This document shows positions 18,016-30,068 of a DNA stretch of 53,640 bases, one piece after another; the stretch's first letter is position 1; every line of letters starts with the position of its first letter. The stretch is from an uncultured Acidobacteriia bacterium (GTDB lineage Bacteria; Acidobacteriota; Terriglobia; Bryobacterales; Bryobacteraceae), in NCBI GenBank assembly GCA_903875575.1, contig CAIQWJ010000094.1:1-53640 (forward strand), read 5' to 3'. The translations under genes were made by a program, and so were the position numbers. Under the pieces are notes generated by a model that worked only from the letters and a program-made list of their open reading frames with translations, searched no databases and was not told the DNA's origin.

Positions 18016-18744
18016 TTACCTTGAATTGGTGGTGGTGAGTGTTTGAAGGCCCTGCGACCGGTTGATTTGCCTCCACAACCGGTTGAAATGGTCCTCCGCC
18101 AATACTTCCTTTAATTGGAAGCGGAAATCGCCTTCGTGGGCCGCGAGGGTCAGATCAAACGGCCCTGAGGTGGAAACGTTGTCGAGGTCATGGATTCGCC
18201 AGGTTCGGGATTCCTCGCCCTCGGCAGACTTGTAGACGATGCGATCAGTCCCGAAGCTCAGGACGCCTTGGGAACCGCTTCGTCCATGGATCAGTTTCAC
18301 GGGCAACTGCCAGTCGGTCTGCACGCGCTCGTCCGCCAGCGCGGCGACAAAGCGGGCGTCCAGGCGATCACGCCAGGCGGCATAAAGCTCCGTCACCATG
18401 GCGGGCGGCAGTTGGTCGAACACGAATTCGCGATCCCGGCCCAGTTCCCAGCGCTGGTCTTCATAGGTCAGGATGTGCAGAGTCTTCGTCCCCAGCGTGA
18501 GCTTCTGGATGTCCTCGTATTTCCACTGCCGGGAATGAATCGTCACACGGTTCTTCTTGTCCCGTTCCTCAAACGCGAGGGACTCCGGTGTGACCTTCAG
18601 CGTGCCAACAACGCCCTTGCGCAGATGGACGTGCCTCACCTGCCACGCACCCTGCTGCGCGAAAGCGAGCGAAGGCACACAGAGCAGCGCGATTAGAATT
18701 GCGCGCGAGCCAGTTTTGGTTTCAGTTCGAAATGCCATTTCCAC
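18016..18744 (-). CDS. Secreted hypothetical protein at the end of the Cus operon
   Basis: The 242-aa protein has a signal peptide (about residues 12-29, RAILIALLCVPSLAFAQQ). The body is hydrophilic with VTPESLAFEERDKKNRVTIHSRQWKYEDIQKLTLGTKTLHILTYED, like a PH-type beta domain, repeated loosely later (LSFGTDRIVYKSAEGEESRTWRIHDLDNVSTSGPFDLTL). Its start lies inside the 3' end of the cusA-like gene (52-bp overlap), so it is translated from the same message. A start at 18738 is equally good. Function unknown. Confidence 0.65.
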   Translation of the reverse strand: MEMAFRTETKTGSRAILIALLCVPSLAFAQQGAWQVRHVHLRKGVVGTLKVTPESLAFEERDKKNRVTIHSRQWKYEDIQKLTLGTKTLHILTYEDQRWELGRDREFVFDQLPPAMVTELYAAWRDRLDARFVAALADERVQTDWQLPVKLIHGRSGSQGVLSFGTDRIVYKSAEGEESRTWRIHDLDNVSTSGPFDLTLAAHEGDFRFQLKEVLAEDHFNRLWRQINRSQGLQTLTTTNSR

Positions 18745-21700
18745 ACCTCATAAATTGCCGGATAAACCATCAGTTCCAGGATGAAAGAAGTAAAGATGCC
18801 GCCGATCATAGGTGCCGCGATGCGCTTCATCACGTCCGCACCCGTCCCCACCGACCACATGATGGGTGTCAGCCCCAGAAACATCGCCGCCACCGTCATG
18901 AACTTTGGGCGAATGCGCTTGACCGCGCCTTCCATAATCGCCTCGCGCAGCGCGGGCAACCCGTCGAGACGCCCCTCGTTTGATGCCTTCTCATAGGCGA
19001 TATCGAGATAGAGCAGCATGAAAACGGCAGTCTCCGCATCCACGCCCATCAGCGCGATCAGCCCAACCCAGACCCCGATGCTCATGTTGTAACCGAGCAG
19101 ATACAGCAGCCAGATCGCACCCACCGCGGAGAAGGGAACTGCGAGCATGATCAGAATCGTCTTGAAGGCCGAGCGTGTATTCAGATACAGCAGCATCAGC
19201 ACCAGGAACAGTGTCAGCGGCAGCACCACGGTCAGCCGCTGTTTCACGCGGGCGATCGCTTCGTACTGGCCGCTCCACGCGATGGAATAACCGGCCGGCA
19301 ACGTGAGCCCGCGGTTCACCGCTTCGCGCGCCTCGGTGACGTAGCCGCCGACGTCACGCCCGGTGACATCCACGTACACGTAACCGCTCAGCAGGCCGTT
19401 CTCATTGCGCAGCATGGAAGGCCCTGCGGTCAGCTTGACGTCGCCGAGCTGCGAGAGCGGAACCTGCTGCCCATTCGCCGCCGCCACTGGAATGCGTCCG
19501 ATGGCCGCCGGGTTGTCGCGATACCCCTGCTGATAACGGATGTTGACGGGATAACGTTCCCGGCCTTCCACAGTGGTGGTCACGTTTTCGCCGCCGATGG
19601 CGCCGGTGACGATCATCTGCACGTCGTCCATGGAAAGTCCGTAACGCGCCAACTGGTCGCGATGCCACTCGATATCCAGAAAGTAACCGCCACTGGTCCT
19701 TTCCGCGAATGCACTGCGTGTGCCGCGAACAGGTGCCAGCAGGCCTTCGATCTGCCTGCCGATCTTCTCGATCTGCGCGGTATCCGAGCCGAAGATCTTG
19801 ACGCCCACTGGAGTTCGGATGCCAGTGGTCAGCATGTCGATGCGGTTGCGGATCGGCATCGTCCACGCATTCGACACGCCGGGCATGCGCAGCGCTTCGT
19901 TCATTTGATCGATCAGGTCTTCCTGCGAAATGTGGTCCGGCGTGATGTGGCGGAAATACGGGAGCAGGGAAGGCGGAGCCCAGGCGCTGTACCATGTGTC
20001 GGCGTGACGCCACTCGGTCACGGGCTTCAGGGTGACCACGGTCTCCGCCATGGAGAGCGGCGCGGGGTCGGTGGAGGTTTCGGCCCGGCCCGCTTTCCCC
20101 AGCACCTGGTCCACTTCCGGGAAACGCGCCAGAATCCGGTCCTGCGTCTGAAGCAGTTTCTGCGCTTCGGTAGCTGAGATGCCCGGCACCGTAGTGGGCA
20201 TGTAAAGCAGCGCGCCTTCATCGAGCGGCGGCATAAACTCCGAACCCAGCTTCTGATACACCGGCCACGTCAAATACACCAGCGCGACCGCAGCCCCCAG
20301 CACCAGCCACTTCCAGCGCAGCGTCCACGCCGCCACAGGGTGGTAAACGCGGATCAACACACGGCTGATGGGATGATTTTCTTCCGAACGGATCTTGCCG
20401 ATAAGGACCGCGCTCACCAGTCGGGCCATCCAGCGCGGGCGAAATTCGAAATTCTTCGCGTGCGTGAAGAGCAGGCGGAGGGCGGGGTCCAGCGTGATCG
20501 CCAGCACTGCGGCGACAATCATGGAAAAGTTCTTCGTGTAAGCGAGCGGCGTGAACAACCGGCCTTCCTGCGCTTCCAGTGTCAGTACCGGCAGAAAGGA
20601 AACCGCGATCACCAGCAGTGCGAAGAAACTCGGCCCACCTACTTCTTTCACCGCGTTGATTACTACCCGGTGATAGTCCTCGTGTCGGCCGTTCCGTTCC
20701 CATTCTTCCAGCTTCTTGTGCGTTTGTTCCACTACTACGATGGAGGCGTCCACCATGGCTCCCACGGCAATGGCGATGCCTCCCAGAGACATGATGTTCG
20801 CGGTCACGCCCAGCAGCTTCATGGGGATGAAGGAAATCAGAATAGCGACGGGGATCGTAATGACCGGAATCACGGCGCTGGGGAAGTGCCAAAGGAAGAT
20901 CATAATCACCAGCGCGACAATGATCAGCTCTTCCGTGAGGGTGTGTTTCAGGTTATCCACCGAACGAAGAATCAGGTCAGAACGGTCATAGACAGGGATG
21001 ACTTTCACGCCCGCGGGCAGGCCTGGCTGGATATCCTTGAGCTTCGTCTTCACCCGATCGATCACAGCCAGTGCGTTTTCGCCCTGTCGCATGACGATGA
21101 TGCCGGAAACTGCCTCACCCTTTCCGTTCCAGTCCGAAATGCCGCGCCGAACGTCGGAGCCGAGCACGACCTCGCCCACGTCCCGCACCCTCACGGCCAC
21201 GCCGTCGGGTGAATTCATGAGTGGAATGTTGCCCAAATCTGCTGTGGATTGCGCGTAACCTCTCCCGCGCACCATATATTCGGCTCCGCTCATTTCCACC
21301 AGACGCCCGCCCACGTCGTTGTTGCCAGTGCGAATGCCGTCCACCACTTTGCTGATCGGGATGTTGAAGGCCCGCAGCTTCGCGGGATCGACGTTGACCT
21401 GGTACTGGCGTACGAAGCCGCCGAGCGGTGCCACTTCCGCCACGCCGGGCACGGACTGCAACTGGTAACGCAGAAACCAGTCCTGTACGGAGCGCAACTC
21501 CGCGAGGTCGTGTTTCCCGGAGGTGTCAGTCAGTACATACTGGAAGACCCAGCCCACGCCGGTCGCGTCCGGGCCGAGTTCCGTTCGCACTCCCTGCGGC
21601 AAACGCGGCAGCACGGCCTGGAGATATTCGAGCGCGCGCGAACGTGCCCAGTAGATGTCAGTGCCTTCGTTGAAGATGATGTAGACGTAGGAGTAGCCAA

Positions 21701-21959
21701 AGTCGGAAAACCCGCGCACCGTACGCACGCCGGGTACGGAAAGCATGGCCGTCGTGATCGGATAGGTGACCTGATCTTCCATGATGTCCGGGCTGCGGTC
21801 CCAGCGCGAGTAGACGATGACCTGCGTGTCGCTGAGATCGGGAATCGCGTCCAGCGGGATGTGGATCATCGACCACCAGCCCGCGGCCACCGCGCCCAAT
21901 ACCAGCACGATCACCATGAATTTGTTGCGGCCCGAGAATTCGATGATGCGATCGATCAT
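18693..21959 (-). CDS. cusA: CusA-type heavy-metal efflux RND permease
   Basis: The 1088-aa protein has the 12-helix plan of HME-RND pumps, with two large periplasmic loops. Signatures include PDLSDTQVIVYSRW, PGVRTVRGFSDFGYSYVYIIF, GLPAGVKVIPVYDRSDLI, GGIAIAVGAMVDASIVVVEQTHK in helix 4, LGSEFMPPLDEGALLYMPTTVPGIS and NRIDMLTTGIRTPVGVKIFG. The last two place it nearer to CusA (Cu(I)/Ag(I)) than to CzcA, since a Met sits at the position equivalent to a copper-relay methionine of CusA (from memory). It uses proton flow to push metal out through CusB and the TolC-like channel. It overlaps cusB by 4 bp. Confidence 0.9.
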   Translation of the reverse strand: MIDRIIEFSGRNKFMVIVLVLGAVAAGWWSMIHIPLDAIPDLSDTQVIVYSRWDRSPDIMEDQVTYPITTAMLSVPGVRTVRGFSDFGYSYVYIIFNEGTDIYWARSRALEYLQAVLPRLPQGVRTELGPDATGVGWVFQYVLTDTSGKHDLAELRSVQDWFLRYQLQSVPGVAEVAPLGGFVRQYQVNVDPAKLRAFNIPISKVVDGIRTGNNDVGGRLVEMSGAEYMVRGRGYAQSTADLGNIPLMNSPDGVAVRVRDVGEVVLGSDVRRGISDWNGKGEAVSGIIVMRQGENALAVIDRVKTKLKDIQPGLPAGVKVIPVYDRSDLILRSVDNLKHTLTEELIIVALVIMIFLWHFPSAVIPVITIPVAILISFIPMKLLGVTANIMSLGGIAIAVGAMVDASIVVVEQTHKKLEEWERNGRHEDYHRVVINAVKEVGGPSFFALLVIAVSFLPVLTLEAQEGRLFTPLAYTKNFSMIVAAVLAITLDPALRLLFTHAKNFEFRPRWMARLVSAVLIGKIRSEENHPISRVLIRVYHPVAAWTLRWKWLVLGAAVALVYLTWPVYQKLGSEFMPPLDEGALLYMPTTVPGISATEAQKLLQTQDRILARFPEVDQVLGKAGRAETSTDPAPLSMAETVVTLKPVTEWRHADTWYSAWAPPSLLPYFRHITPDHISQEDLIDQMNEALRMPGVSNAWTMPIRNRIDMLTTGIRTPVGVKIFGSDTAQIEKIGRQIEGLLAPVRGTRSAFAERTSGGYFLDIEWHRDQLARYGLSMDDVQMIVTGAIGGENVTTTVEGRERYPVNIRYQQGYRDNPAAIGRIPVAAANGQQVPLSQLGDVKLTAGPSMLRNENGLLSGYVYVDVTGRDVGGYVTEAREAVNRGLTLPAGYSIAWSGQYEAIARVKQRLTVVLPLTLFLVLMLLYLNTRSAFKTILIMLAVPFSAVGAIWLLYLLGYNMSIGVWVGLIALMGVDAETAVFMLLYLDIAYEKASNEGRLDGLPALREAIMEGAVKRIRPKFMTVAAMFLGLTPIMWSVGTGADVMKRIAAPMIGGIFTSFILELMVYPAIYEVWKWHFELKPKLARAQF

Positions 21960-23197
21960 TTCGTCCCCGCCTTCATCTGGCTGTCGGAATTGAGCAGAAA
22001 CACGCCGGAGGCCGCGTAACGCTCTCCCGCTTTCAGACCGCTGAGGATCTCCACACGCTCACCCAGACGCTCGCCCGTCTCCACGGTGCGCGGTTCGAAG
22101 TGGCCGTTGCCTGAGTCGAAGAACATGGTCTTCGAAGTTCCCGCGTCCAGCACCGCTTCCGCCGGAACCATGAGCCGTCGGGTTCCGCCGGACTCCAGTT
22201 CCACGTCGGCGTACATGTCGGGTTTCAGCGCGCCCGGATTCGGCATTACGAAACGAACTTTGAGCGTGCGTGTTGCGGGATCCACCTGCGGCTGAATGTA
22301 AGCGACCTTCGCGGTCAAAGTGCCGCCGCCACCGGGGAACGAGATGCGCGCGGTTTGCCCCACATGGACCCGCGCTGCGTCGGCTTCGAACACATCGGCA
22401 ATCACCCACACCTGACTCAGGTCAGCCAGAGTGTAGAGTTCCGTTTCGGGTGTGAACTTCTGCCCGGGGAAAGCGTTGCGGGCGGTGATGAAACCGCTGG
22501 CGGGCGCAAACAGGGTGATAGACGCCAACGGCTTCTCGGTGCGCTCCACTTCGTCGATCTGCGCGGGCGTCATGCGTAGCAGTTCCAAACGCTTTCGCGA
22601 CGCCTCCACAAGCGCGTGGCTGTTGGCTGCGGAATCGTGCATGGAACTCGCCTGCATGGCGGCCACTGCCTTGATGGCCAGCAGGAACTCCTGTTCGCTG
22701 GCGTGCAGTTCGGGGCTGTAATAAGTGAGGAGTGGCTCGCCTTTCGCGATGAACTTACCGGTGAAATCGGCGACTACGGTATCGATCCAGCCGTCGGTCC
22801 TTGCCTGCACGCGGGTCATTCGCGTTTCATCCGCCATCACGCGGCCCACGGCGTGCAGGCTATCGGTTGGATTGCTCCACGCGGCAGTTTCATAGCGAAC
22901 GCCAATCAGTTGCTGCTGCTCAGCGGCGGTGCGAACGCTGTTGTCGGCCGGCGCAGCATCGCTAGCGCCCTGCGAGCCATCCGGGTATACCGGCACCAGC
23001 TTCATACCGCAATCCGGTGCGATGCCCGGCTTGTCGGACTTGTACCAGGTGTGCATCGGGTCCACGTAATAAGTGGGCTTGCGATTATCTTTGGCGACTG
23101 CGGTGCGCGTGCTGTACCAGCGCCCGTAGCCGAAGCCGCCGGCTACCAGCGCGGCCACAAAAACAACGAATAGCAGAAACTTCAGCAGCCTCATCAT
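21956..23197 (-). CDS. cusB: CusB-like periplasmic adaptor with heavy-metal-binding domain
   Basis: The 413-aa protein has an N-terminal membrane anchor (about 5-26). Next comes a heavy-metal-binding domain, YYVDPMHTWYKSDKPGIAPDCGMKLVPV (about 43-70), where Met, His and Cys can hold copper. The usual adaptor parts follow: RVQARTDGWIDTVVADFTGKFIAKGEPLLTYYSPEL (lipoyl half), a helical hairpin, SGFITARNAFPGQKFTPETELYTLADLSQVWVIADVFE and the membrane-proximal part. It links the RND pump to the outer channel and hands over metal. It overlaps both neighbours by 4 bp. Confidence 0.9.
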   Translation of the reverse strand: MMRLLKFLLFVVFVAALVAGGFGYGRWYSTRTAVAKDNRKPTYYVDPMHTWYKSDKPGIAPDCGMKLVPVYPDGSQGASDAAPADNSVRTAAEQQQLIGVRYETAAWSNPTDSLHAVGRVMADETRMTRVQARTDGWIDTVVADFTGKFIAKGEPLLTYYSPELHASEQEFLLAIKAVAAMQASSMHDSAANSHALVEASRKRLELLRMTPAQIDEVERTEKPLASITLFAPASGFITARNAFPGQKFTPETELYTLADLSQVWVIADVFEADAARVHVGQTARISFPGGGGTLTAKVAYIQPQVDPATRTLKVRFVMPNPGALKPDMYADVELESGGTRRLMVPAEAVLDAGTSKTMFFDSGNGHFEPRTVETGERLGERVEILSGLKAGERYAASGVFLLNSDSQMKAGTK

Positions 23198-24459
23198 TTT
23201 GCGTCTCCAAACACCGGTGCTCCGGTCAGTTCTTCCAGCTTTGTCAGTGCCAGCACGTACTTCAGTTCTTCTTCGTGCAGGCGCTCCTCCGCGTCGATCT
23301 TCGCTGTCAGGTTGGCCATCACCGGAGCGAAGTCCCCGGCACCGGCCTTATAGCTGTTCATCGCCGATTCCACGGTGAGATCATTTTGCGGCAAGATCGT
23401 GTCGCGATACAGTTGCGCGATCTTCCACGCCGATTGCGCTGCGAGGTAAGCTTCACGCACGCGAAACTGAACGCTCTGTGTGGTGGCCTCGTAGTCGCGC
23501 TTCACCTCAGAGAGGCGGCTCACTTCGGCGCTCAGAGCCGGGCGCTCCCGTTGTTCCTGATGGATCCTCAGCGGAATATCCACCCGCACCTGATACATCG
23601 GTGCCATGCCACCCTGATTGAAGAAGCCTGCCGCAACGGTGTAATCCGGGTGCAGGTCTTTGCGCGCCAGATTGACAGCCAGTTCGCCGCGCTCAATCGC
23701 CTTCTGCGCTTTCCGAAGTTCGGGCGACAGGTCGTCGGCCTGCCGCAACAGATCCTCCACGCTCAGCCGAAGTGGAGCGGCCTCGCTCATCACGGGTTCG
23801 CCAATCGGCGTTGCGGGATTCCGGTTGAGCAGGTAGTTGATCTCCGCCTCGGACGTGTTCTTGTCCGTCTCCATCTCCACAATCCGGGTTTCCAGCATGG
23901 CAAGCTCAGTCTGCGTCCGAAAGATGTCCTGCTGCGGCGTTTTACCCTGCGAATAGCGAACCTCGGAGATCCGCAGCATCCTCGTGGTCAGTTCCTGCGC
24001 CTGCGCCAGTAAAGCCAGCGACGCCCACGCATGGTGCAAACGATGGAAAGCCTCGGAAACCCGCGAACGCAGGCTCCATTCCACGGCGCGATACTGCTGT
24101 AGTTCCGCATCGGCCTCTTTCACCGCAATGGCACCACGCAGATTCAGCTTGCCGGGGTACGGCAATTCCTGGGAAACCATGACTCCGATATTGCTGGTGG
24201 CATCGCGACCCAGGCCCTGTCCCGGCAGCGGGCCGCCGTTGCTCGTGTAACCGGCCGAAAGTACCGGATCCGGCAAGGCACGCATCTGAGACGGCTTCTG
24301 CCGTGCCGCTTCAAATCGCTTTTGCGCCGCGAGTAATTCCGGATTCCTGGCGAGCGCGGTCGCGATCAACTCCGACAGGCGGGCCGGCTCTTCGCCTTGC
24401 GCCGCGGGAACTGCAAAACAGAGCGCGGCCAATAAAGGGACTGCGCAGCAACTGGACAT
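23194..24459 (-). CDS. cusC: TolC-family outer-membrane efflux protein (CusC/CzcC-like)
   Basis: From the ATG at 24457-24459 the protein has 421 aa with a signal peptide (SSCCAVPLLAALCFAVPAAQG); the frame is open to 24510 but that extension adds 17 residues ahead of the signal. The TolC repeat is visible twice: LSELIATALARNPELLAAQ with PDPVLSAGY, and VEDLLRQADDLSPELRKAQ with PDYTVAAGFFNQGG. Long helical stretches fit the periplasmic barrel. It forms the outer-membrane exit of the pump. It overlaps cusB by 4 bp and lies 100 bp after the Cys-rich gene. Confidence 0.87.
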   Translation of the reverse strand: MSSCCAVPLLAALCFAVPAAQGEEPARLSELIATALARNPELLAAQKRFEAARQKPSQMRALPDPVLSAGYTSNGGPLPGQGLGRDATSNIGVMVSQELPYPGKLNLRGAIAVKEADAELQQYRAVEWSLRSRVSEAFHRLHHAWASLALLAQAQELTTRMLRISEVRYSQGKTPQQDIFRTQTELAMLETRIVEMETDKNTSEAEINYLLNRNPATPIGEPVMSEAAPLRLSVEDLLRQADDLSPELRKAQKAIERGELAVNLARKDLHPDYTVAAGFFNQGGMAPMYQVRVDIPLRIHQEQRERPALSAEVSRLSEVKRDYEATTQSVQFRVREAYLAAQSAWKIAQLYRDTILPQNDLTVESAMNSYKAGAGDFAPVMANLTAKIDAEERLHEEELKYVLALTKLEELTGAPVFGDAK

Positions 24460-24558
24460 CGTTTCCTCGATTACCGTGGGGCTGCCGCCAGGACAGGCGG
24501 CGTCGATCATGCGCGCAGGCGCACGACTGCTTTCAGACAGGTGTAATTGAGGTTGGAA

Positions 24559-25045: not shown

Positions 25046-25094
25046 ATAGCACAGATCTCTTGACGCAAACGATTGAGTTAAAATGGAGAAATAG

Positions 25095-25799
25095 ATGGAA
25101 AAGCTCTTCAGGTGGGCAGGTGTCGGTGTTTTTGTCGCGGTCGCCGGTGGCGGCCTGTTTGTAGTTGAGAGCCATGCCTCGCAGCCGGCGCTGATCGTGC
25201 TGGATACCTCGCGGGCAATCTCCGCGACCGCTACGAAGGCCACGGGCACACTGGTTCCCGCCGGTTGGGAACTCAAAGTCAAGGCCGGTCAGGCGGACAT
25301 TGCCGGACTCTCCGATCCGAACGACGAGGCTGCTCTTCGCTTCCGCAGTGCTCGCTCGTCTTTCGCCCTGGAACGCGCGCTCGACGTGGATCCCAACCAG
25401 ACGCCTTATCTCAACTGGAAATGGAAAGTCACGCAATTGCCGAAAGGTGGCGATTTCCGCCACAGTTCCACCGACGACCAGGCCGCACAGGTGATGGTCG
25501 CCTTCGCTGACAATCGCATCCTCGCCTACATCTGGGACAGCACTGCGCCGCAGGGTCTGATGGAAAGTGCCAGTTCCATTCCGCTGGTCCACATCTTCGC
25601 CATTGTCTGCCGTTCCGGCCTGAACGACGTGAACCGCTGGCTTCAGGAAATTCGTAACGTTGCGGCCGATTACCAGAAGGCCTACGGCAAGCCGGCTCCC
25701 CACGTGAAGGGCCTGCGCCTTCAAATCAATTCTCAACACACCGGTAGCAGCGCCGAAAGCTACTTCGGCGAAGTGGAATTTCGCAACACCCAGTCATGA
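25095..25799 (+). CDS. DUF3047 protein, first gene of the sphingolipid-like operon
   Basis: The 234-aa protein has an N-terminal signal or anchor (about 8-28). The domain reads TLVPAGWELKVKAGQADIAGLSD, DPNQTPYLNWKWKVTQLPKGGDFRHSSTDDQAAQVMVAF, and ILAYIWDSTAPQGL, the pattern of DUF3047, whose W-KWKV and DDQAAQV segments are conserved. The function of DUF3047 is unknown. It is likely periplasmic. The ATG has GGAG about 8 nt upstream. It overlaps the epimerase by 4 bp, so it is tied to the lipid genes; a role in lipid handling at the envelope is only a guess. Confidence 0.82.
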   Translation: MEKLFRWAGVGVFVAVAGGGLFVVESHASQPALIVLDTSRAISATATKATGTLVPAGWELKVKAGQADIAGLSDPNDEAALRFRSARSSFALERALDVDPNQTPYLNWKWKVTQLPKGGDFRHSSTDDQAAQVMVAFADNRILAYIWDSTAPQGLMESASSIPLVHIFAIVCRSGLNDVNRWLQEIRNVAADYQKAYGKPAPHVKGLRLQINSQHTGSSAESYFGEVEFRNTQS

Positions 25800-26773
25800 T
25801 CCTGGTCACCGGAGCCACCGGCTTCATCGGAGGCCATCTGGTGGAGCGCCTGCTCGCGCGGCGTGAACGTGTTCGCGTCCTGGTGCGAAAGTCCGGCCCC
25901 TTTGAGAAATCCCCGGTGGAATTGGTCCGCGGCGACCTGCTGACGGGCGATGGTCTGCCCCGCGCTTTGGCCGGCGTCGATACCGTGATCCATCTGGCAG
26001 GCGTTACCAAGGCTCTCACCACCGCCGACTATTACGACGGCAACGTTCGCGCTACGGAAAATCTGTCCCGCGCCATCGCGACGGTTAACGCGACCAGTCC
26101 GCGTCCGCTGCGCACCGTTCATGTCAGTTCGCTCGCGGCCATCGGCCCGAGTCCCGACGGGACTCCGATTCTGGAAGACGCCGAACCTCACCCAATCGCA
26201 CATTACGGAAGATCCAAGCTGGAAGGCGAGCGCAAACTGCGCACCATTCTGCCGGATGCCGTGATTGTTCGCCCGCCTGCCGTTTACGGCCCCCGCGATA
26301 CCGATGTCTTCGAGATCCTGAAATCGGTAAATCAGGGGCTCGTGATCCAGGCGGGTTCCGGCGAGAAGCATTTCAGCGTCATTTACGTCATGGATCTGGT
26401 GGATGGCATCATCGCCGCAGCCCGCGAACCACGCGCTGTGGGACGCGCCTATTTCCTGGCCAGTCCCCATATTTCGTCGTGGAGTGAACTCATTGGCATC
26501 GCCGCGCGTATTATGGGACGGTCCCCCCGCATGGTCACTGTCCCCGTCTCCGCTGCCCTTGCCGTCGGCTTCTGCGCCGAAATGTGGGCCCGTCTGACAA
26601 GAAGACCCGGCATCATTTCACGGGACAAGGTGGCCGAACTGCAATGCCCGTATTGGGTCTGCGACACGCGCCGGGCGAAGGCAGAACTTGGCTTCGAAGC
26701 CGTCACCGGTATCGAGCAGGGGCTGGAAAACACACTCTCCTGGTATCGTGAGGCCGGATGGCTGAAGTACTAG
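25796..26773 (+). CDS. NAD-dependent epimerase/dehydratase, candidate ceramide reductase (CerR-like)
   Basis: The 325-aa protein is an extended short-chain dehydrogenase. The nucleotide loop TGATGFIGGH is at residues 5-14, a DTVIHLAG strand follows, VSSLAAIGPS supplies the catalytic serine and HYGRSKLEGE the YxxxK pair. In Caulobacter the enzyme CerR of this superfamily reduces the 3-keto group during ceramide synthesis (established in general terms). Here the placement between a PAP2 protein and the acyltransferase/SPT pair supports the same job, but other sugar or sterol-type substrates are possible for such enzymes. It overlaps the next gene by 16 bp. Confidence 0.75.
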   Translation: MILVTGATGFIGGHLVERLLARRERVRVLVRKSGPFEKSPVELVRGDLLTGDGLPRALAGVDTVIHLAGVTKALTTADYYDGNVRATENLSRAIATVNATSPRPLRTVHVSSLAAIGPSPDGTPILEDAEPHPIAHYGRSKLEGERKLRTILPDAVIVRPPAVYGPRDTDVFEILKSVNQGLVIQAGSGEKHFSVIYVMDLVDGIIAAAREPRAVGRAYFLASPHISSWSELIGIAARIMGRSPRMVTVPVSAALAVGFCAEMWARLTRRPGIISRDKVAELQCPYWVCDTRRAKAELGFEAVTGIEQGLENTLSWYREAGWLKY

Positions 26774-27663
26774 AGAACTCCCTTCCGCCTGTCGACTGGT
26801 CACACGGTTTCTGGCCGGTGGACAAGGTGATCCTGGCGTACTTTGCAGCCATGTGCGCCGTTGAGATCTGCTGTTTTTCGCAAATCCCGGAAGCAGCCTG
26901 GCTCATTGCCCTGCATGGCATCGGTGCCATCCTGATTGTGGCCGCAACCAGATACAACGGCCGGGCAGTCTGGGTCTTCCGCCACTGGTACCCCATCCCT
27001 TTCGTCGCCTGCTGCTACCGGGAGATGGCCATCCTGATCGTCGCCCTGCGTCATGCACGTTATGACCAGGCCCTCGCAGACCTCGATTTCGCTTTCTGGC
27101 ACGCGAATCCGTCCGTCTGGCTGGAGCGCATCTACTCGCCCGCGCTTTCGGAATACTTACAGATCATTTATACATTATTTATACCGGTGGTCCTGTTCGT
27201 GCCCTGGCTGGTCTGGCACCGTAAGAAATACACGGAATTCCGCTACATGGCTTTCCTGCTGGCACTGGGCTTCCTGGCGTCCTATCTGGGTTACCCGCTG
27301 GTGCCTGCGCGCGGTCCCAGATACTCGCTCGCGCAGTTCCAGCATGCGCCTTTGCAGGGCCTCTGGCTCTTTGACTGGATGCAGACCACTCTCAACCGTC
27401 TGGAGCGGGAACACTACGATTGCTTCCCCAGCGGCCACACCGAACTGACAGTACTGGCCTTTTGGCTCGGCCGATCCGTCTCAAAACGCCTCTTCCGAAT
27501 GTACTTTTTATACACTCTGAGCATTGTTTTTGCTACAGTTTATCTACGGTACCATTACACGGTCGATCTCCTGGCTGGTGTTCTGGTTGCGCTTGTACTC
27601 ATTCTTGCGGCACCAGTTTTGTACCGCGGACTGTCTGAAAAGGGAGATTTGATTGGCGATTGA
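26758..27663 (+). CDS. PAP2-superfamily membrane protein, AUR1-like (candidate phosphoceramide head-group enzyme)
   Basis: The 301-aa protein has six or more membrane helices. The PAP2 motifs are CFPSGHTELT (about residues 222-231) and YLRYHYTVDLLAG (about 262-274), with PARGPRY before them. The HYxVDLxAG form resembles fungal inositol-phosphoceramide synthase AUR1 as well as phosphatases. In this operon it could move a phospho-head group onto ceramide, or remove phosphate from a lipid intermediate. It overlaps the epimerase by 16 bp and the acyltransferase by 11 bp. Confidence 0.75.
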   Translation: MAEVLENSLPPVDWSHGFWPVDKVILAYFAAMCAVEICCFSQIPEAAWLIALHGIGAILIVAATRYNGRAVWVFRHWYPIPFVACCYREMAILIVALRHARYDQALADLDFAFWHANPSVWLERIYSPALSEYLQIIYTLFIPVVLFVPWLVWHRKKYTEFRYMAFLLALGFLASYLGYPLVPARGPRYSLAQFQHAPLQGLWLFDWMQTTLNRLEREHYDCFPSGHTELTVLAFWLGRSVSKRLFRMYFLYTLSIVFATVYLRYHYTVDLLAGVLVALVLILAAPVLYRGLSEKGDLIGD

Positions 27664-28783
27664 AGTCGTTGCGATCAGCGGCAAAAGCGGATTGAAACAA
27701 TTCGTGGAATTCCCGCATTCCATCTATGCCGGCGATCCGCATTGGGTCCCGCCACTGCACATCGCGGTGAAAGAGTTACTCGACAAAGAGAAGCATCCGT
27801 TTTACGCCAACGCGGAAGCCGAGTTCTTCGTCGCCAAGCGCGATGGCAAACTGGTTGGCCGCATTGCAGCCATCATCGACCGGAACCACAATAAGTTCCA
27901 CGACGAAAAAGCGGGCTTCTTTGGCTTCTTCGAGTCGATTGACGACGCGGAAGTCGCCAACGCGCTCCTAAATACAGCCCGGAAGTGGGTCTTCGAGCGG
28001 GGTGCCGAATTCATTCGCGGTCCCGTCAATCCCTCCACCAACTACGAATGTGGTCTGCTCGTGGAAGGCTACGATGCGAGTCCCATGGTCATGATGACCT
28101 ACAACCCGCGGTACTACCCGCGTTTGCTGGAGCAGGCCGGTTTTCAGAAGATTAAGGATCTCCACTCGTTCGTGAATTCAGCCGATGGCGTGGACCTCAA
28201 GAAGATCGGTCGCGTGGCGGACCGCGCCCTCCAGCGGAACGAAGTCACCATCCGCCCCATCAATTTGAAGGACTTTGCGGGCGAAGTGGAGCGCATCTGG
28301 GACGTCTACAACGCCGCTTGGGAAAAGAACTGGGGTTTCATTCCGATGACCAAAGAGGAGTTCTTCCTCATGGGAAAAGAGATGAAACAGATCCTCAAAC
28401 AGGAGATGGTTCTGATCGGCGAGTGCAAGGGTCGTATGATAGGTTTTGCTCTGGCGTTACCGGATGTTAACGTAGCGCTGAAACCGGCCAACGGGCGTCT
28501 GCTTCCCACGGGGCTGCTGAAGATACTGTATTACCAGCGGAAGATCCGCGCCGTGCGGGTGATTGCGCTGGGTGTGGTGGAGGAATTTCGCGCGACCGGC
28601 GTTGCAGCCGGGTTTTATGCGGCGCTCGTGAGAAATGCCCGGAAGCTCGGGTATGACCAGGAATGCGAGATGTCGTGGATACTGGAAGATAACGTTCTGA
28701 TGACAAGGTCCCTCGAACTCATGGGGGCAAGACGTACCAAGACGTACCGTCTGTACCAGTCATCGGAGCGGAGCGGGAACTAA
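27653..28783 (+). CDS. GNAT-like acyltransferase, candidate bacterial ceramide synthase (bCerS-like)
   Basis: The 376-aa protein has the pattern DPHWVPPLHIAVKELLDKEKHPFY, AEFFVAKRDGKLVGRIAAIIDRNHN, GFFGFFESIDDAEVANALL, and GPVNPSTNYECGLLVEGYD. A second GNAT-like half contains KNWGFIPMTKEEF and VVEEFRATGVAAGFYAALVRNARKLGY, an acetyl-CoA-loop-like stretch. The Caulobacter ceramide synthase bCerS is a GNAT-fold N-acyltransferase found with SPT (from memory), and context makes this the best candidate for N-acylation of the sphingoid base. The start is TTG at 27653 with GGGAG six bases upstream; no ATG lies near. Confidence 0.68.
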   Translation: MAIEVVAISGKSGLKQFVEFPHSIYAGDPHWVPPLHIAVKELLDKEKHPFYANAEAEFFVAKRDGKLVGRIAAIIDRNHNKFHDEKAGFFGFFESIDDAEVANALLNTARKWVFERGAEFIRGPVNPSTNYECGLLVEGYDASPMVMMTYNPRYYPRLLEQAGFQKIKDLHSFVNSADGVDLKKIGRVADRALQRNEVTIRPINLKDFAGEVERIWDVYNAAWEKNWGFIPMTKEEFFLMGKEMKQILKQEMVLIGECKGRMIGFALALPDVNVALKPANGRLLPTGLLKILYYQRKIRAVRVIALGVVEEFRATGVAAGFYAALVRNARKLGYDQECEMSWILEDNVLMTRSLELMGARRTKTYRLYQSSERSGN

Positions 28784-28787
28784 TAGA

Positions 28788-30068
28788 ATGAGCGCCTTAA
28801 CAGCACGCGTCACCACGATTCCGAAAACCAACGGCGGCCCCAGCGTCGTCCCAAATCATTCGGGCAGCACATCGGGCAGCAAAGACGTTTTCGAGAAGTG
28901 CCGCAATTTCACCCGGCCGTCCGAACTCCAGGCCGCCGGGCTTTACATGTATTTCGAGACTTTCGGCGATCGCGAAGGCTGCGCTCCCGGTGAAGTCCGC
29001 CGCGGGGATCGAAAGATCCTGATGTTCGGCTCGAACGATTATCTCGACCTCATCACGCACCCGGAAGTGATGGAAGCCGCCGCCCAGGCCGCGCTCCGTT
29101 ACGGCAGCGGTTGCAGTGGTTCACGCCTGCTCAACGGGACTCTCGATATTCACGTCAAACTGGAAGCTGAACTTGCCGCGTTCGTGCGGAAAGACGCTGC
29201 CATCATTTTCGGCACTGGCTTTCAGGCGAACTACGCCACGCTTTCCGCTCTGACCGATAAGGGCGATACCCTGGTTTGCGACCATAACCTCCACGCCAGT
29301 CTGGTGGAAGGCGCGCTGCGTTCCAACGCGCGCATGGTCCGGTTCCGGCATAACGATCTCGATCACTTCGAACGCTGCCTTGAAAACTGCAAGTGGGACG
29401 AACGCGTTCTCGTGGTTTCCGAAGGCGTCTTCAGCATGGAAGGCGACGTAGCGGATCTGCGCGGTATCGTACCGATTGCCAAGCAGTCTGGTGCGCGTAT
29501 CTTTGTCGACGAGGCGCACGGTATTGGCGTGCTGGGTGCAACAGGCGCCGGTGCGGCCGAACACCTCGGCGTGCTGGACGATGTCGATCTCATCATGGGC
29601 ACTTTCAGTAAGTCGCTGGCTTCTGTTGGCGGCTTTATTGCGGGCGAGAAGACGGTGATCGATTATCTGAAGCACACGGCGCGTCCGTTCGTGTTTTCGG
29701 CGAGTCTGCCGCCTGCCTCGGTGGCCGCGGCTGCGAAGGCCCTCGAGATCATCAAGTCGGAGCCGGAACGCCGCACGCATCTGCTGCGCATTGCGAACCT
29801 GCTGCGCTCGGAACTGATGTCACGTGGTTATACGCTGCTGGATGGCGAAACGGCCATCGTGCCGGTAGTGTTTAACAGCGACGCGGACCTCTGCCGCCTC
29901 AGCAAGACGCTGCTCGAAGAGGGGATCTACATCAATCCGATTCTTCGTCCGGCTGCCTCGCAGAATCTGCTGCGCATTTCCTGCACGGCGGCGCATACCG
30001 AAGCTCACGTGGAGCGGCTGGTGAGCACGATTGAGAAGACGGTTGTCAGCCTCGGCATCGAACGCTAA
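28788..30068 (+). CDS. spt: Serine palmitoyltransferase-like alpha-oxoamine synthase
   Basis: The 426-aa protein is a PLP-dependent alpha-oxoamine synthase. It shows FGSNDYLDLITHPEV, YGSGCSGSRLLNGTLDIHVKLE, FGTGFQANYATLSAL, DEAHGIGVLGATGAG, the lysine loop TFSKSLASVGGFIAG and RPFVFSASLPP. The family includes SPT, KBL, BioF and HemA. Overall length, the extended N-terminus (about 50 residues) and the neighbouring ceramide-type genes favour SPT, which joins serine and palmitoyl-CoA to 3-ketodihydrosphingosine. No biotin or threonine-degradation genes are near. It starts 4 bp after the acyltransferase stop and closes the operon. Confidence 0.8.
   Translation: MSALTARVTTIPKTNGGPSVVPNHSGSTSGSKDVFEKCRNFTRPSELQAAGLYMYFETFGDREGCAPGEVRRGDRKILMFGSNDYLDLITHPEVMEAAAQAALRYGSGCSGSRLLNGTLDIHVKLEAELAAFVRKDAAIIFGTGFQANYATLSALTDKGDTLVCDHNLHASLVEGALRSNARMVRFRHNDLDHFERCLENCKWDERVLVVSEGVFSMEGDVADLRGIVPIAKQSGARIFVDEAHGIGVLGATGAGAAEHLGVLDDVDLIMGTFSKSLASVGGFIAGEKTVIDYLKHTARPFVFSASLPPASVAAAAKALEIIKSEPERRTHLLRIANLLRSELMSRGYTLLDGETAIVPVVFNSDADLCRLSKTLLEEGIYINPILRPAASQNLLRISCTAAHTEAHVERLVSTIEKTVVSLGIER

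Follow-up and report, generated by a model that had tools for sequence, protein, structure and literature searches.

A conserved five-gene operon of Acidobacteriota that couples predicted ceramide synthesis genes to an AUR1-like PAP2 protein and a DUF3047 protein

What does an operon make when genes resembling those of bacterial ceramide synthesis are coupled to an AUR1-like PAP2 membrane protein and a DUF3047 protein? This question is raised by a 53,640-nucleotide stretch of DNA from an uncultured Acidobacteriia bacterium of the family Bryobacteraceae (contig CAIQWJ010000094.1), the whole of which we refer to as the window. Five plus-strand open reading frames (ORFs) span positions 25095-30068 in the order DUF3047, epimerase, PAP2, GNAT-fold acyltransferase and serine palmitoyltransferase (SPT)-like gene; adjacent genes overlap by 4, 16 and 11 bp, and the last junction is a 4-bp gap. 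An initial annotation of this DNA had claimed the same coordinates, overlaps and gap, all of which were reproduced by our ORF calls, and the gene families it assigned are backed by Pfam scores above cut-off for all five proteins (Table 1). We conclude that the operon most likely makes a phosphosphingolipid, and we hold this overall explanation with good confidence.

The five-gene operon is a genuine, conserved unit. We scanned named genomes with a DUF3047 alignment and kept the best 80 of 170 relatives, of which the first 46 loci are titled Acidobacteriota, mostly Bryobacterales, Bryobacteraceae, Solibacter or Terriglobia, with some loci coming from one genome. All five genes are present in identical order in 37 of these 46 DUF3047-seeded loci. 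Among the other nine, four stop at a contig edge, two lack the epimerase and three are lone DUF3047 genes; a 47th Acidobacteriota locus is an additional lone copy. The overlaps in related loci are often base-for-base those of the window (-4 or -1, and -16), and the commonest family outside the five reaches 9 of 42 loci. The arrangement is beyond chance because the gene order is kept, the overlaps recur and outside families travel so seldom with the set. Within the order, the GNAT was matched in 27 of 150 genomes in a GNAT-seeded sample, and 14 of the 22 loci examined after weaker matches were left out hold all five genes in order. Of the other eight, one has the GNAT in two pieces (L101), one lacks the epimerase (L094), two run off the contig (L086 and L095) and four have neither DUF3047 nor epimerase, and these mixed counts indicate that the operon is patchy in the order. 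Among the genomes listed, at least 19 of the same class outside the family gave no GNAT match.

A 37-protein tree places the SPT of the window, together with its relatives from other copies of the operon, in a 32-row SPT clade (support 98/95) that includes Bacteroidota SPTs as well as the SPTs of gene sets from Roseomonas and Klebsiella. BioF forms a separate clade (98/90), and KBL and HemA also lie outside; the outgroups KBL, HemA and E.coli BioF are long branches in this tree, which has no cysteate acyltransferase row. The window protein carries the pyridoxal phosphate (PLP)-lysine motif GTFSKS, which is found in 23 of the 32 SPT rows (TFSKS in 26 of 32) and in none of the five non-SPT rows; we take the lysine of the GTFSKSLASVGG motif to be the residue that binds PLP. 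On the tree and this motif we reject a BioF, KBL or HemA reading, and the grouping with BioF or KBL that would have spoken against the SPT assignment was not seen. A search of the window's genome at an E value of 1e-3 gave no alpha-oxoamine synthase besides the SPT, and hence neither BioF nor KBL; bioA and bioB were not checked. The window SPT is thus predicted, by likeness, to join serine to a long-chain acyl thioester.

Cysteate acyltransferase and BioF are closely related to SPT, which leaves room for a different amino-ketone lipid as the product: cysteate would give a sulfonolipid, and alanine a 1-deoxyceramide. In the tree, a long stem (1.02) leads to the window's SPT group, and a passage of a survey credits Black Sea bacteria having Spt-like proteins with 1-deoxyceramides (PMC11334938). 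The ranking of PDB matches points the other way: serine palmitoyltransferase leads at 350 bits, ahead of a BioF/KBL-type enzyme (249) and cysteate acyltransferase (226). The bCerS- and CerR-like partner genes likewise speak against such a product. Moreover, a 1-deoxyceramide has no C1 hydroxyl on which a PAP2 step could act. We consider such a product improbable.

The two partner genes complete the predicted ceramide core. The window GNAT shows 37% identity over 97% (E 7e-69) to the protein in the bCerS position of a Roseomonas mucosa gene set and 36% to its counterpart in a Klebsiella michiganensis set, where the bCerS assignment rests on gene content and published clusters rather than on assay. 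The similarity to bCerS, the lack of which had been named as a ground for doubt, is clear. The reference bCerS proteins fall inside the GNAT family tree and are not sister to the window's clade, and a by-sequence search of the PDB with the GNAT gave no relative of weight. The Roseomonas mucosa set, on a plasmid, comprises genes for a fatty acyl-AMP ligase, a short-chain dehydrogenase/reductase, an acyl carrier protein (ACP), a PLP enzyme and a diacylglycerol-kinase-family protein, together with two LptF/LptG genes and a protein annotated as dATP pyrophosphohydrolase; it looks like the Caulobacter type, as does the Klebsiella set. The epimerase matches the Roseomonas CerR position at 34% (123 bits) and the Klebsiella one at 26%, and its best paralogue in its own genome is weaker (29%, 67 bits), so that the suggested comparison with CerR comes out in favor of a CerR-like protein. 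Caulobacter CerR is described as periplasmic (PMC11087976); the window epimerase shows no apparent N-terminal signal. The GNAT is predicted from these likenesses to N-acylate the sphingoid base, and we are highly confident of the ceramide core as a whole.

Two relatives of the GNAT deserve separate mention. The Klebsiella michiganensis set lies at 110000-127000 of plasmid NZ_CP106839.1 (L199) and holds fatty acyl-AMP ligase, CerR-like, ACP, SPT, bCerS-like and LptF genes; the plasmid is typed as conjugative, which makes this a possibly mobile ceramide set. E.coli K-12 YghO (L195:9044-10216) carries the annotation of a putative transcriptional regulator; in the tree its sister is the Klebsiella bCerS-like protein, and the annotated start of yghO falls within an IS5 copy.

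What might the PAP2 protein add to a ceramide? Its residues H227, H266 and D270, the catalytic His-His-Asp, are invariant in 43 sequences. The AUR1-like motif HYxVDLxAG noted in the initial annotation is present as HYTVDLLAG at residue 266 and, in a profile match, aligns with HYFVDLMAG of AUR1. A fold match to AUR1 covers 258-263 residues, which is full length, at 15-17% identity, and the AUR1 fold beyond the shared PAP2 core is found in the window protein. The profile match and the full-length fold match together strengthen the AUR1-like reading. Fungal AUR1, an inositol phosphorylceramide synthase, thus shares the PS-x-H and HYxVDLxAG motifs and the fold with the window PAP2; at this low identity the two differ in that AUR1 has a PPW stretch where the window protein has GPR. 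The bacterial subfamily is marked by the motifs VPAxGPR, FPSGHT and TVYLRYHYxxD, and a search of a plasmid collection for relatives gave no match at an E value of 1e-5. Taken together, these features suggest that the PAP2 protein is probably a ceramide head-group transferase.

The association of these families extends to other phyla. A Desulfobacteraceae metagenome-assembled genome (MAG; locus L172) holds all five in a different order, SPT-GNAT-epimerase-PAP2-DUF3047; its SPT and the window's SPT group are not sisters in the tree. Twelve regions from Nitrospirae and NC10 carry a full GNAT (L236-L247); the epimerase and SPT adjoin it in all 12 and a subfamily PAP2 in 11. Two regions are left out of this count: L251, where a second GNAT copy has no SPT, and L252, which a contig end truncates. 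We then counted co-occurrence in 245 genomes of the phylum around genome G402 (locus L165, titled Nitrospirae). The GNAT is present in 97 genomes, or 96 once one weak match is dropped; 79 carry a PAP2 subfamily member scoring at least 130 bits, or 92 including weak matches. Both are found in 74 genomes (Fisher p 4e-36, kinship ignored). Of these 74 pairs, 8 lie within 10 kb, 6 are farther apart on one contig and the other 60 are on different contigs, so that shared position alone does not account for the link. SPT adjoins the GNAT in 9 of 10 regions of this sample; in the tenth genome it is PAP2 that has SPT and epimerase next to it.

Two further gene neighborhoods were recorded in these surveys. 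A small gene of ∼155 codons, NYN-type nuclease-like, stands directly before PAP2 in 10 of 17 loci of the G402 sample (L265-L278). A Rubrobacter radiotolerans plasmid (L201) carries SPT-, GNAT- and reductase-like genes followed by a lipoteichoic acid (LTA) synthase family gene, whose product might likewise add a phospho-head group.

Several observations weigh against the phosphosphingolipid explanation. Neither the SPT nor the PAP2 protein reaches the equivalog level: the SPT scores 441.1 bits against NF047600 (SerpalmtaseCFB; cut-off 640), its best-scoring NCBIfam model though below cut-off, and the PAP2 protein scores 17.8 bits against the phosphoinositol dihydroceramide synthase model NF052609 (cut-off 480). 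Four divergent loci of the order (L098, L099, L100 and L102) hold PAP2-GNAT without DUF3047 and epimerase; SPT adjoins the pair in L098 only, and L102 is near a contig end. The co-occurrence statistics ignore kinship, and the split over different contigs hides the true GNAT-PAP2 distance in 60 pairs. The PAP2 subfamily is missing from 22 of 96 GNAT genomes, and the GNAT from 5 of 79 PAP2 genomes.

In the profile search with the PAP2 protein, moreover, the phosphatase LpxE (E 2.3e-4) scores on a par with AUR1 (1.6e-4 and 2.4e-4). This bears on a second explanation, in which the ceramide core holds and the PAP2 protein is a lipid phosphatase acting on ceramide phosphate, phosphatidate or undecaprenyl diphosphate, with any head group made elsewhere. 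The protein does belong to the phosphatase superfamily, the catalytic His-His-Asp is common to PAP2 phosphatases and AUR1-type transferases, and in the G402 sample the PAP2 gene is often apart from the ceramide genes, in surroundings that look housekeeping-like. Lipid phosphate phosphatases of the PAP2 type with C1-C2-C3 motifs carry KxxxxxxRP and SRx5Hx3D. Neither was found in the window PAP2, which has just the PSGH and HYTVD form. We judge a phosphatase unlikely and prefer the head-group transferase.

The role of the DUF3047 protein is less firmly placed. Its AlphaFold2 model (mean pLDDT 91.2) has a hydrophobic N-terminal helix at residues 8-24 and is otherwise a jelly-roll beta-sandwich; the N-terminus resembles a signal peptide, and the protein is probably secreted. 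The fold neighbors are ciliary doublet-microtubule chains, a glucuronyl C5-epimerase, complex I assembly intermediates and carbohydrate-binding modules, a by-sequence PDB search gave no relative of weight, and the literature found on DUF3047 names no role. The idea that it is a candidate for lipid handling is supported for the subfamily near the window's protein, which is in the operon and whose genomes mostly hold the pathway, and not for the whole Pfam family: in the sample of the window's phylum, the GNAT is present in 4 of 14 DUF3047 genomes as against 68 of 247 overall.

The counts behind this division come from 37 lone or other-phylum DUF3047 loci, including the Desulfobacteraceae one. 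A GNAT search covered the 33 genomes of 34 of them, to which the other three loci (L180, L182 and L191) also belong by accession, and found the GNAT in 18 of the 33. All three Acidobacteriota genomes among these (L117, L145/L156 and L163) carry it. The remainder were split into near and distant DUF3047 after the results had been seen: with a near DUF3047 (L161-L162, L164-L179 and L181) the GNAT is present in 14 of 19 genomes, and with a distant one (L183-L190 and L192-L194) in 1 of 11. In the G402 sample, 21 genomes have DUF3047 at 150 bits or more, of which 18 hold the PAP2 subfamily and 16 the GNAT; each is found in 9 of 10 when genomes pre-picked for DUF3047 are dropped. At 110 bits or more, the GNAT link is weak (19 of 36, p 0.05). 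Tandem DUF3047 gene pairs were seen in Methylomirabilota (L177, L178 and L179).

DUF3047 could also stand outside the pathway, as a mobile secreted protein caught in the operon of one lineage. In favor of this are the missing family-wide GNAT link and the lone copies, whose neighbors are seldom shared: the widest family besides DUF3047 reaches 5 of the 37 lone or other-phylum loci. Four lone copies are from Acidobacteriota (L117, L145, L156 and L163); the operon is nonetheless present in their genomes, once with no adjoining DUF3047 (L248-L250). Further, the GNAT is absent from five of the 19 near-DUF3047 genomes (L161, L166, L170, L173 and L175; L170 is titled a chromosome), and three of these five (G398, G403 and G409) hold PAP2. 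A trapped gene is harder to reconcile with the full operon in 37 of 46 loci, with the reordered linkage in the Desulfobacteraceae MAG, whose SPT lies outside the window's group, with the near-DUF3047 and PAP2 counts at the higher threshold and with the scarcity of the GNAT in genomes with a distant DUF3047. We regard the trapped gene as possible though doubtful, and lean towards a DUF3047 protein that serves the ceramide pathway.

From the families, operon conservation, folds, motifs and co-occurrence observed here, we infer catalytic steps, their order and location, a head group and a role for DUF3047 as follows. The five genes would form a single transcription unit for a phosphosphingolipid. 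SPT would condense serine and a long-chain acyl thioester into 3-ketosphinganine, which the bCerS-like GNAT would N-acylate; the CerR-like reductase would then reduce the keto group to give a (dihydro)ceramide. The AUR1-type PAP2 protein would work on the inner membrane's outer face, taking a phospho-head group off a glycerophospholipid and placing it on the ceramide hydroxyl. The jelly-roll DUF3047 protein, probably secreted, would be an accessory at the same face, most likely binding the polar head of the product or else aiding the reductase or the transferase.

The head group would most likely be inositol or ethanolamine. A myo-inositol-phosphate synthase (MIPS) gene is present in 141 of 150 genomes of the order, the window's included, mostly without the GNAT, and for this reason MIPS lends no specific support; an inositol donor is possible, and on general grounds ethanolamine is as likely. 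The MIPS gene of the window's genome (L223:8902-10269) is directly followed by a nucleotide-sugar-epimerase-like gene. More broadly, and only tentatively, ceramide makers in at least four phyla (Acidobacteriota, Nitrospirota, Methylomirabilota and Desulfobacterota) may rely on the AUR1-type PAP2 subfamily as their regular head-group transferase, with the near-subfamily DUF3047 as its periplasmic lectin-like helper, in a route parallel to the ceramide-kinase route of Caulobacter.

The positions of the features are given in Table 1. The genes flanking the operon look unrelated to the five-gene set. Downstream are an ECF sigma factor gene and a protein kinase gene (Pfam), and before the operon three minus-strand genes at 18693-24510 of the window resemble an RND heavy-metal efflux system. 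Promoter-like sites and terminators are about as frequent as in shuffled sequence.

Table 1. Features of the five-gene operon, in window coordinates
Feature	Position	Strand	Basis
GGAG, Shine-Dalgarno-like	25085..25088	+	6 bases upstream of first start codon, read from sequence
DUF3047 protein, 234 aa	25095..25799	+	Pfam PF11249 106.8 bits, cut-off 27
CerR-like NAD-dependent epimerase/dehydratase-family reductase, 325 aa	25796..26773	+	Pfam Epimerase 112.1 bits, cut-off 20.9
PAP2_3 membrane protein, AUR1-like, 301 aa, proposed ceramide head-group transferase	26758..27663	+	Pfam PAP2_3 66.5 bits, cut-off 27
Codons for PSGH, residues 224-227, active-site motif C2 of PAP2 protein	27427..27438	+	
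Codons for HYTVDLLAG, residues 266-274, AUR1-type motif C3 of PAP2 protein	27553..27579	+	
bCerS-like GNAT-fold N-acyltransferase, 376 aa	27653..28783	+	Pfam Acetyltransf_1 29.6 bits, cut-off 20.7
Serine palmitoyltransferase-like alpha-oxoamine synthase, 426 aa	28788..30068	+	Pfam Aminotran_1_2 202.4 bits, cut-off 19.7
Codons for GTFSKSLASVGG, residues 271-282 of SPT, PLP-lysine motif	29598..29633	+	

Solibacter probably belongs to Bryobacterales, as the window does, and a 2024 study by Halamka reportedly, to go by its title, concerns ceramides of Solibacter usitatus. The ceramide genes of Caulobacter crescentus are given in passages of PMC11324152 and PMC11087976 as aasR, cerR, acpR, spt and cerS. 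Both systems have an SPT, a bCerS-like acyltransferase and a CerR-like reductase, whereas the window operon is without an acyl-AMP ligase or ACP gene and has the PAP2 protein in the place of the ceramide kinase and further enzymes of Caulobacter. Bacteroides thetaiotaomicron BT_1522, a phosphoinositol-dihydroceramide synthase, is likewise an AUR1-like protein in a sphingolipid maker (predicted, in our case), but according to the sections of PMC9246714 consulted it sits in an inositol-lipid cluster, while the window PAP2 gene sits in a ceramide operon. Spt-bCerS-CerR genes have been reported from about 40 bacterial phyla, and the passages of that survey (PMC11334938) share the core pathway with the window and do not include PAP2 and DUF3047 companions. 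A literature search on bacterial serine palmitoyltransferase with PAP2 turned up just Aspergillus work. The ceramide core is thus already known; an AUR1-like PAP2 subfamily as a regular companion over several phyla, with a near DUF3047, was not met in the portions of the literature searched.

The operon bears on the origin of soil sphingolipids, since soil lipid data, as presented in part of PMC9969633, raise the question of whether Acidobacteriota make them. In our judgment, the head groups on ceramide in soil and sediment bacteria, and the enzymes that add them, are open for most. If the explanation given here is true, one gene would predict phosphoceramide makers from sequence over several phyla, AUR1, an antifungal target in yeast, would have a bacterial counterpart within a ceramide operon, and DUF3047 would gain a first, testable role.

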